A DNA stretch of 45,836 nt. It comes from Microbacteriaceae bacterium. GTDB lineage: Bacteria > Actinomycetota > Actinomycetes > Actinomycetales > Microbacteriaceae. Position numbers and translations under genes: made by a program. How positions within the stretch are numbered: the stretch's first letter is position 1; every line of letters begins with the position of its first letter. Positions 9,994 to 13,067 of the stretch are shown here, piece after piece. The DNA lies in assembly GCA_947447395.1 (NCBI GenBank), contig CANFJH010000005.1:1-45836 (forward strand), in the 5' to 3' direction. Under the pieces are notes generated by a model. That model was not told where the DNA came from. It saw only the letters and a program-made list of their open reading frames with translations, and made no database searches.

Positions 9994-10286
9994 AGCAGTG
10001 TTCCTTGGAATTTAGACCAGCAGGTGGTGTGAAAATGACGCCGGGTGTCAACGCCGCGCACTTCGTCCCAAGCAACTAGGTGGCTGGTGCCTTGCAAAAT
10101 GCTTAGATGACAGTTTGGACAAATCCAGGACTTGTCTTCTTCCGCATTCCTGCCGGTAGTCGGTTGAACCACATAAACTGTGCCTCGTTTGCTTTCAGTG
10201 CGCCTTGAACCGAAACGTACCGATGCGATATTCAATTCTTCTGGCTCATCACGTTTTGAGCGCTTAGGGCGATTGGAACGAGGCAT
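9990..10286 (-). CDS. small zinc-finger-like actinobacterial protein
   Basis: Internal start MPRSNRPKRSK at 10286 avoids overlap with the upstream gene; CPNC...HFHTTC putative metal ligands. Confidence 0.6.
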   Translation of the reverse strand: MPRSNRPKRSKRDEPEELNIASVRFGSRRTESKRGTVYVVQPTTGRNAEEDKSWICPNCHLSILQGTSHLVAWDEVRGVDTRRHFHTTCWSKFQGTLL

Positions 10287-10924
10287 TAGTACCAGTTGAG
10301 TTGATCTGAATGAGCCAATGCGCCGCAAGGAGCACTGTATCTACCGTGGATGTAGTTGAGTCCCCACACGATTTGAGTTTCCGGGTTTGTTAGCCAGTCA
10401 GGGCCAGCAGTTGCCATCTTGTTGCCAGGAAGAGCCTGCGGAATGCCATAGGCACCGGAGGAGGCGTTGTAGGCGTTAATTCGCCAGTTGGATTCGCGGT
10501 TCCATAGTTTGACGAGGCAAGAGTATTGATCCAGCCCCCAGCCGAAGGCTTTCATCTTGCTGTAGGCAATAGCCTGCACGGTGTCTTTTGCCGGAACCGA
10601 GGCAGCTTCAACGAACACCTTGCTGACTTCGGAACCACTGAGGACGTTGTATCCTCCGCGCGTAATTTGCACAGTCGCAACGGGTTGCTGGCCAGAATCA
10701 AAGTAATTCACGTAATCGGTTTCGGCTGCGTTCGCTGCCAAGGTTCCTGAATAGGGATCAACCACCGTTACTAATACCAAAGCAGCGCTTAGAGCCAAGC
10801 CCCAAGCTCGCTTAGTTGGAACACTGTCCAAGATGTTTGAAATGCCAGATTTTTGAGCGAAGTTACTTAAAGGCGAAGCGATATGGCTTCCGAGAGTCTG
10901 ACGATCAGCCGCGTGACGACCCAT
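10286..10924 (-). CDS. secreted lytic-transglycosylase-like (Rpf/SLT-like) domain protein
   Basis: Hydrophobic export segment, then CLVKLWNRESNWRINAYNASSGAYGIPQALPGNKM...GLNYIHGRY with catalytic-Glu-type motif. Confidence 0.8.
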   Translation of the reverse strand: MGRHAADRQTLGSHIASPLSNFAQKSGISNILDSVPTKRAWGLALSAALVLVTVVDPYSGTLAANAAETDYVNYFDSGQQPVATVQITRGGYNVLSGSEVSKVFVEAASVPAKDTVQAIAYSKMKAFGWGLDQYSCLVKLWNRESNWRINAYNASSGAYGIPQALPGNKMATAGPDWLTNPETQIVWGLNYIHGRYSAPCGALAHSDQLNWY

Positions 10925-11000: not shown

Positions 11001-11735
11001 CTAAGGCAGGGCCTCCTTTGGGCAGGTTCCAAGGACTCTCAAAATCGATGATTTCTCTGTAGCAGTTACCCAAAGGCGGTACTTTCGCTTTACCGAGAGT
11101 TGACGCGCAACGTATTTGCACTGGTATGCGGTTCTTGGAAGAAAACTCGCGGCATCGCCATCGCTTTTCGATTCATTGGTGGGCCCATCAACGGCCAATA
11201 GGTTCAAAGGGTCGTTTGCCAGCTGAAAGCGGGCGGTAGGGCTTAACTTTTGCGCTCCAGTGACCCAGGCGTTACTTAGAGCCACAACATGGTCAATTTG
11301 AACCGCCAGCGACGTCTTTACTCCTCTGACGAAATGGATGGTAGCACCCGTATATGGATCGGAGAGAGTTCCCGTTGCTACCAGGCACCAACTACTGGAC
11401 TTTCTGGAGATGTTGGTTAAATCGCGCATCAGAATGTAGTTCCGAAGATCGCAAGAATGTCCGCTAACTCTGATCTTCCCCCAGCCAGCTGAAAACTTTG
11501 ACCTAGTATAGCCCTTGTGGCTCACCCAAGCCTTTGGCACTAGTTTCTTGGCGTATACCAAGGCATTGGTGCTAGAACTCGCTGTAAGGGTTGTGTGAGT
11601 CGGCTGGTTGGCTACGGCTGTTGTCGTTGAAGCCATACTGAGGAATAGGGTTGACGATAACAGGAGGCCCAAAACGACGCGTTTGCAGGTACTCCACCAA
11701 CCGTTCGATATAAGAATCGACCTGTGATTCAACAT
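11001..11735 (-). CDS. secreted HNH endonuclease family protein (DUF1524/GmrSD C-terminal-like)
   Basis: VQIDHVVALSNAW...NDPLNLLAVDGPTNESKSDGDAASFLP is HNH/DUF1524-like; N-terminal signal peptide VVLGLLLSSTLFLSMASTTTAVA. Start ATG 11735 or the adjacent TTG 11732, inside the upstream gene. Confidence 0.75.
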   Translation of the reverse strand: MLNHRSILISNGWWSTCKRVVLGLLLSSTLFLSMASTTTAVANQPTHTTLTASSSTNALVYAKKLVPKAWVSHKGYTRSKFSAGWGKIRVSGHSCDLRNYILMRDLTNISRKSSSWCLVATGTLSDPYTGATIHFVRGVKTSLAVQIDHVVALSNAWVTGAQKLSPTARFQLANDPLNLLAVDGPTNESKSDGDAASFLPRTAYQCKYVARQLSVKRKYRLWVTATEKSSILRVLGTCPKEALP

Positions 11736-12210
11736 AGCCTCCCCGCTTGACTTTGAAGGTAATCGATCGAACTTGATCGATGAACAAAGATTCTTGACCC
11801 TCAAGAAATTCTTGAATGAGCAGCATCAAGACATCTACCTCTTGGCGAGAGTAACCCACGCCTGCGACACCCATGCGACTGAAGCGACGATTATTCGGAC
11901 GATGTACTCGACCAAGCAGCAAAGTCCGCAAATCGGCAAGGCTGGTGCCTGAAAGCGATGCACCGGAATTCAAGTCACGGTTCAATTCACGCTCAGCAAA
12001 TGAATCCTGAAGCTTGTCGATTGCCGAATCCACAGCCGCCGGGTCATAACCACCCTTGACCATGGTGAATTTTTGAGTGGTAATCCCCCGCCAGTCAAGA
12101 ATCCGAGACGACAGATTGTTGTATTGGTCCCTCGCTAAAACAATGAATGCATCAACTTCTTCTGGCGCATAACCAAGTTTGCGTTTTCCAACATTCTCAA
12201 AGGCTGACAT
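11572..12210 (-). CDS. DivIVA-domain repeat protein (four DivIVA-like GYxxxxVD motifs)
   Basis: KLGYAPEEVDAFI, KGGYDPAAVDSAI, GVGYSRQEVDVLM, RGGYVESQVDSYI; SD AAGGAG upstream of ATG. Confidence 0.75.
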   Translation of the reverse strand: MSAFENVGKRKLGYAPEEVDAFIVLARDQYNNLSSRILDWRGITTQKFTMVKGGYDPAAVDSAIDKLQDSFAERELNRDLNSGASLSGTSLADLRTLLLGRVHRPNNRRFSRMGVAGVGYSRQEVDVLMLLIQEFLEGQESLFIDQVRSITFKVKRGGYVESQVDSYIERLVEYLQTRRFGPPVIVNPIPQYGFNDNSRSQPADSHNPYSEF

Positions 12211-12218
12211 GGTTCTCC

Positions 12219-13067
12219 TTAGAATCCAAAAATGGTTACGAAGACGTAGGTAACTAGAGCCGCAGGTAGCAACGAATCCAGGCGATCCATAATTCCACCA
12301 TGACCAGGCAACAGCGATGACATGTCCTTGATGCCGAGGTCTCGTTTGATCAAAGATTCGGCCAGGTCACCGAACACGGCAGCGAGAATTAGAATCGCGG
12401 CCAAAATGAGCCCCGCCCACCACGGCTTGTGAGCCACTAAAACCACAAGACCAACGCTCGACGTCACACCAGCAATAATCGACGCAAGCAACCCCTCCCA
12501 GGTCTTTTTAGGGCTAACGCCAGGCGCCAACTTGTGCTTGCCCAGCTTCCGACCAACCAAATAGCCAGACGTATCGATCAGGGCGACCGGAACCACAAAA
12601 CAAAGAACCCAAGCCGAATCGTGTTTCAGAAGAAGAATAGAAAACGAGAGAGTCAGCGGGAGGTAAATAATGAGAAATGCGGCTGCGGCTAGATCTCGAA
12701 TTGTGTCAGAGAAAGTCTGCTCAACGCTTCGTCGCTTCTCCCAGAGAATGTGAACCAACCGCCAAACCATGAGAGCCAAGGAAGTTGCCAGAGTGAAGCC
12801 CCACTGACCAACGACGCCCCAGTAGTAGGTGGCCGGCATGATTAATACCGATCCCACGACGGCTGGAACTCTAGGCACATACCAGTCCTTCTGGCGAAGC
12901 GCAGTTGAAAGTTCCCAAGCGCCAAAACCAATCGCTGTGGCTACGAGAACGATGAAGAGTTCTTTAACAATCAGAATCGAGAGTAAAAATGCGACACCCA
13001 AAAGTAGCCCGTAGAAAACGGACTTGGAGAGACTGCGCCCTGCCTCTTGACCCTGATTGGTAGCCAC
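12219..13067 (-). CDS. cdsA: phosphatidate cytidylyltransferase
   Basis: C-terminal signature SLIKRDLGIKDMSSLLPGHGGIMDRLDSLLPAA. Confidence 0.95.
   Translation of the reverse strand: MATNQGQEAGRSLSKSVFYGLLLGVAFLLSILIVKELFIVLVATAIGFGAWELSTALRQKDWYVPRVPAVVGSVLIMPATYYWGVVGQWGFTLATSLALMVWRLVHILWEKRRSVEQTFSDTIRDLAAAAFLIIYLPLTLSFSILLLKHDSAWVLCFVVPVALIDTSGYLVGRKLGKHKLAPGVSPKKTWEGLLASIIAGVTSSVGLVVLVAHKPWWAGLILAAILILAAVFGDLAESLIKRDLGIKDMSSLLPGHGGIMDRLDSLLPAALVTYVFVTIFGF

Follow-up and report, generated by a model that had tools for sequence, protein, structure and literature searches.

A probable same-strand overlap in a Rhodoluna clade that places a predicted nuclease signal peptide within the 3′ end of a DivIVA-repeat gene

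Analysis of a 45,836-nucleotide stretch of DNA (the window) from a genome that appears to belong to Rhodoluna (Microbacteriaceae), together with its relatives, points to a pair of minus-strand genes that share far more than their ends: a DivIVA-repeat open reading frame (ORF, 12210–11572) is overlapped on the same strand by an ORF for a GmrSD_C/HNH nuclease with its stop at 11001. We consider it highly probable, on comparative sequence evidence, that this overlap is genuine, that it formed when the DivIVA stop codon was lost in the ancestor of one small clade of freshwater Rhodoluna, that the nuclease is initiated independently of DivIVA, and that constraint is handed over from one protein to the other along the shared bases. 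Both genes have conserved homologues, and the overlap is kept in relatives at the same place and in the same frame.

RESULTS

Layout of the gene pair

The ORFs, stops, coordinates and translations given in the initial annotation of this DNA all proved correct on re-reading the sequence, and the overlap, which it had put at about 160 nt, amounts to 161 nt counted from TTG 11732 or 164 nt counted from ATG 11735 (Table 1). The Shine-Dalgarno (SD)-like GGGGAGG that it had described in the RGGY codons ahead of these two starts is also present, at 11744–11738 in the codons CGG GGA GGC TAT, with a spacing of 2 nt to the ATG and 5 nt to the TTG. In its longest form the nuclease ORF runs from TTG 11804, and both ATG 11735 and TTG 11732 lie inside the DivIVA ORF, so that the entire predicted signal peptide is contained in DNA common to the two ORFs. 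On the minus strand tsf, pyrH, frr and a presumed cdsA are followed by the DivIVA-repeat gene, the nuclease gene and a lytic-transglycosylase-like gene; the gene directly upstream of DivIVA we take to be cdsA from its sequence and from its position after tsf, pyrH and frr. Promoter and terminator patterns around the locus were no more frequent than expected by chance.

Table 1. Features of the overlapping gene pair and its neighbours (positions in the window)
Feature	Position	Strand	Description
DivIVA-domain-repeat gene	11572..12210	-	212 aa, three DivIVA motifs; stop TAG 11574-11572
Putative secreted GmrSD_C (His-Me/HNH) nuclease gene	11001..11732	-	From conserved TTG; alternative start ATG 11735
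Overlap	11572..11732	-	161 nt from TTG 11732; nuclease frame +1 relative to DivIVA
SD-like GGGGAGG	11738..11744	-	DivIVA codons CGG GGA GGC TAT of third (last) RGGY motif
Probable start codon TTG	11730..11732	-	Out of DivIVA codons GTT GAA; NTT GAR in 5/5 clade genomes
Overlap part A	11667..11732	-	DivIVA domain end over nuclease n-region; DivIVA constraint
Overlap part B	11575..11666	-	Clade-specific DivIVA C-terminal tail over hydrophobic core, cleavage region and mature nuclease start; nuclease constraint
Predicted signal peptide	11610..11732	-	41 codons, AVA at end, then NQ; read from sequence
GmrSD_C nuclease domain	11037..11426	-	Residues 104-233 of 244-aa form
SLT/aggregation-promoting-factor-like lytic transglycosylase gene, downstream	10286..10924	-	Directly behind DivIVA in the four relatives without the nuclease
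Gene upstream of DivIVA, presumed cdsA (phosphatidate cytidylyltransferase)	12219..13067	-	ORF list

Identity of the two proteins

The DivIVA ORF matches TIGR03544 with 65.6 bits (cut-off 22) in three stretches and PF05103 with 33.2 bits, and it aligns with 174 of 178 positions of TIGR03543 (the DivIVA domain repeat family) at 124 bits, which is below the cut-off of 154.2. We know of no function for the DivIVA-repeat family at this locus.

The second ORF matches PF07510 (GmrSD_C, a His-Me finger/HNH domain; 3.1e-14, 53.8 bits, cut-off 23), as do all of its 17 or 18 aligned relatives, whose alignment shows no variation at residues D148-H149, N187 and K190. The GmrD (DUF1524) nuclease domain is held in common with the GmrSD type IV restriction enzymes (PMC4619093); unlike these, the Rhodoluna ORF has no GmrS (DUF262) domain, GmrSD_C being the sole domain found, and carries a predicted secretion signal. 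With the GmrS part missing, it does not qualify as a GmrSD type IV enzyme. A sequence search found no solved structure for the nuclease, and a fold search with its predicted model (pLDDT 66.8) returned only meaningless matches. In a crude scan the predicted N-terminus shows a clear hydrophobic core and an AxA site, and by crude scan a signal-like N-terminus is likewise seen in 55 of 58 homologues outside the genus, which supports the original proposal that the DivIVA ORF contains the signal peptide of a secreted nuclease. Domain, motif and, by the crude scan, a signal-peptide-like N-terminus are shared with the secreted GmrSD_C (DUF1524/PF07510) HNH nucleases of actinobacteria, but in the other genera examined the nuclease gene, unlike that of Rhodoluna, is not located beside a DivIVA-repeat gene. 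As R. lacicola takes up DNA naturally (PMC11577799), one guess at the role of the nuclease would be the use or processing of extracellular DNA.

Close homologues of the nuclease (46–50% identity) also occur in Saccharibacteria/Patescibacteria (L184, L188, L190, L191, L204 and L206), several of them with a signal-like N-terminus, and an exchange of the gene between these bacteria and Actinobacteria is possible. More distant copies of the nuclease domain (∼33% identity) are found in a few members of the genus, away from DivIVA, at G052:C28:11603-12073, G062:C88:256-795 and G027:C112:110-595.

The neighbourhood appears specific to Rhodoluna

Our comparison set comprised 67 genomes of the genus, 62 of which carry the DivIVA-repeat gene; in the family it is present in 250 of 250 genomes. 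The nuclease was matched in 60 of the 67, two of these having only distant paralogues, and the two genes lie side by side in 58. In the four genomes where no nuclease follows DivIVA (loci L019, L030, L072 and L080 of G058, G045, G062 and G040), the transglycosylase-like gene comes directly after it. Among the loci fetched from outside the genus 52 had DivIVA alone, 92 the nuclease alone and none both, which makes the neighbourhood look like a feature of this genus alone.

The nuclease probably starts inside the DivIVA gene

In 47 of the 58 gene pairs the open nuclease frame extends upstream as far as the Tyr of DivIVA's last RGGY motif. Ten of the remaining 11 have their first start codon 17–53 nt before the DivIVA stop. 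The last, G006 (L068/L088), has its nuclease in the other frame with a start 5 nt behind that stop, and no further pair without an overlap was seen in the genus. Judged from these reading frames, most of Rhodoluna starts the nuclease inside DivIVA. Two arrangements in relatives had been named at the outset as evidence against the overlap: a nuclease that starts behind the DivIVA stop, which is seen in G006 alone, and a DivIVA frame that ends earlier, which is indeed the rule, although the nuclease of these relatives still starts inside DivIVA.

From the RGGY site to the mature domain G025 contains no ATG, GTG or TTG, and unless an uncommon start codon is used its nuclease must be initiated at RGGY or immediately ahead of it. 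Within the clade of the source genome, GGGGAGG (CGG GGA GG[CT]) and the TTG 5 nt behind it are invariant in five of five genomes. Of the two start codons originally put forward it is thus TTG 11732 that is conserved, while ATG 11735 is private to the source genome among the five.

DivIVA codons at RGGY are skewed towards a putative ribosome-binding site

The Arg codon of RGGY has the form NGG in 40 of the 47 open-frame genomes as opposed to one of 15 controls (Fisher 5e-8, treating genomes as independent), the controls being the 11 genomes that start the nuclease elsewhere and the four without it. These NGG codons are AGG or CGG, with TGG (Trp) in two genomes, and among the other Arg codons of the same genes 145 of 1008 end in GG. 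Similarly, the Tyr following RGG is encoded by TAT in 44 of 47 open-frame genomes and in 5 of 15 controls (kinship ignored), and the Tyr of the first repeat by TAT in 27 of 46. All four genomes without a nuclease beside DivIVA use CGT or CGC for the Arg. Two of them, G045 and G040, are closely related to G051, a genome with both the nuclease and CGG. The synonymous codons of DivIVA at RGGY are, on these counts, skewed towards what would be a ribosome-binding site and start. In a tree-aware sign test 3.5 of 4 supported independent pairs agree on average and none opposes (p 0.125), and with only four such contrasts the test is unable to reach significance.

Measured as hybridisation energy, the SD is stronger than synonymous codons would predict in the focal clade (p 0.03–0.09 per genome) and not in the rest of the open genomes (median p 0.34); as RGGY always yields GGNGG, this measure is uninformative genus-wide. 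The informative SD signals are accordingly only the identity of the Arg and Tyr codons, and the focal clade. In genomes lacking the upstream open frame, the SD before the TTG at –17 was not above null either.

Constraint is handed over along the overlap

Constraint on the shared bases was judged by hand-made substitution counts and by draws of synonymous codons. In the first 66 nt, differences amount to 0.21, 0.08 and 0.52 per DivIVA codon position, i.e. they fall on third positions, and in the tail region to 0.48, 0.51 and 0.44, without pattern; here it is the third position of the nuclease codons that is most variable, and identity in the DivIVA frame is 0.31. The two closest pairs of genomes divide in the same manner: part A contains 7 and 8 changes that are nonsynonymous for the nuclease and synonymous for DivIVA (2.2 and 3.0 expected), and part B contains 12 and 16 of the opposite kind, synonymous for the nuclease and nonsynonymous for DivIVA (7.0 and 10.0 expected). 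In the more distant pairs with G000 only the first part shows the split. Simultaneous purifying selection on the two frames was therefore not found, as constraint is split along the overlap, with the exception of the SD and start bases in the RGGY codons. The dual-frame constraint that the initial annotation had suggested looking for is thus largely missing, since by the substitution counts DivIVA governs the first part of the overlap and the nuclease the second.

When the DivIVA protein was fixed and its synonymous codons were drawn, a nuclease frame that is open and has an equally strong hydrophobic core arose in 27, 13, 1, 0 and 6 of 5000 draws for the five clade genomes. When instead the nuclease protein was fixed, the DivIVA tail was open by chance in 0.31–0.53 of draws per genome. 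An open signal-peptide frame is thus rare by chance and an open tail common, which argues that the signal peptide is the selected message there. The DivIVA tail, predicted to be disordered (pLDDT below 50 for residues 184–212), would then be mostly a passenger. The tails of three of the five clade members end in NPYSEF or NPYSEYE (11592–11572 in the window), and the middle of the tail is not conserved; the shared NPYSE[FY] hints at some selection on the tail.

The long overlap probably arose by loss of the DivIVA stop

The genomes with a long DivIVA (G000, G056, G018, G005 and G033) form one clade with 100/100 support, so that a single change on the tree accounts for them. Elsewhere in the genus the DivIVA stop lies at +69 to +87 from the RGGY Tyr, just before the hydrophobic core of the nuclease, and in the five-species clade at +156 to +177, i.e. 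28–35 codons further on. As the next in-frame stop behind the DivIVA stop of the relatives is 9–318 nt away, an extension by 84–105 nt needs no special cause. Such an extension by stop loss also agrees with simulations in which lengthening of the 3′ end of the upstream gene is the commoner origin of same-strand overlaps (PMC3887535).

In the scenario that we favour, the ancestral DivIVA stop would have been situated just upstream of the signal-peptide core of the nuclease and would have been lost in the ancestor of the five-species clade. The DivIVA frame would then have continued through signal peptide and cleavage site until it met a stop, and the protein would have gained about 31 disordered and mostly unconstrained residues. 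Within the DivIVA message, ribosomes would begin the nuclease independently at GGGGAGG-N5-TTG (11732), and the 41-residue signal peptide would be made and the His-Me-finger nuclease exported. DivIVA would constrain the first 66 nt of the overlap and the nuclease the remainder. The C-terminal tail of DivIVA thus seems to have been added over an already existing signal peptide. The description of the signal peptide as overprinted on DivIVA stands in that the overlap is real, but its polarity is partly reversed, as it is DivIVA that was lengthened over the signal-peptide core.

DISCUSSION

Annotated co-directional overlaps of more than 60 bp are usually due to a mis-set start or a sequencing artefact (PMC2478687), in which case the nuclease would really start after the DivIVA stop or the tail would stem from a frameshift error. 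However, the arrangement is common to five separately assembled genomes that form one clade, a start behind the DivIVA stop (only TTG 11562 is available here) would delete all of a signal peptide that the clade conserves and that homologues elsewhere also carry, and the substitutions seen in the tail keep to the nuclease frame. We regard an artefact as very unlikely. True dual coding, in which a functional DivIVA tail selected in its own right is overprinted on the signal peptide, would fit a tail that is open in all five species and ends alike in three; it is rendered improbable by the frequency with which the tail is open by chance given the nuclease protein, by the low identity and missing codon-position pattern in the DivIVA frame, and by the predicted disorder. 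Also unlikely is a genus-wide version of the story, in which the ribosome-binding site and start of the nuclease sit in RGGY, DivIVA codon choice sets nuclease output, and the clade's tail was born on the signal peptide and is now used, as NPYSE[FY] might suggest. Fusion of the two proteins by programmed frameshifting seems less likely, as the locus has a conserved SD and start codon.

It had further been proposed that the overlap could couple a cell-pole/envelope protein to the secreted nuclease. Coupling at the level of translation would mean that synthesis of the nuclease needs ribosomes translating the DivIVA-like protein. The order and overlap of the genes are kept genus-wide, and short overlaps do couple translation in other bacteria (PMC10666635). 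Termination-reinitiation is, however, almost abolished at distances of ∼20 nt (PMC10666635), and with the nuclease start ∼160 nt upstream of the DivIVA stop it is unlikely to operate here. Moreover, a search for a conserved hairpin masking the nuclease SD found none, and several relatives that keep DivIVA lack the nuclease gene or start it elsewhere. With genes that are neighbours only in this genus, the proposal found no direct support, and we consider coupling doubtful relative to independent initiation of the nuclease.

Among 338 surveyed genomes no co-directional overlap of more than 60 bp proved real, the longest real one measuring 56 bp (PMC2478687). By our reading of the sequences, the Rhodoluna pair is a real and unusually long terminal overlap that exceeds this record. 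A close counterpart is holD-rimI of Enterobacteria (PMC2478687), which is likewise a same-strand overlap of a gene end with the next start, conserved across species; such co-directional terminal overlaps arise by stop loss, as probably here, or by a new start. The holD-rimI overlap measures at most 56 bp, in contrast to ∼160 nt in the Rhodoluna clade and an open frame of 71–86 nt in most of the genus, and the clade's overlap spans a whole predicted signal peptide. In rnpA-rpmH of Thermus (PMC9841429) two frames are also read from one message, and a GGAGG Shine-Dalgarno sets the start; there, however, one gene lies entirely within the other and a single SD serves both starts, whereas here the overlap is terminal and the internal SD would serve the downstream gene only.

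Long same-strand overlaps in bacteria are generally dismissed, and the present case offers a genus-wide comparison with built-in controls, as the ribosome-binding-site codons in DivIVA are mostly missing from relatives that have no nuclease or whose nuclease starts elsewhere. The overlap may be tolerated because the constrained end of the domain coincides with a loosely constrained n-region, and the constrained core with a tail that is not constrained. Automatic annotation with a penalty on overlaps would probably cut the signal peptide off and thereby hide the predicted secretion of the nuclease.
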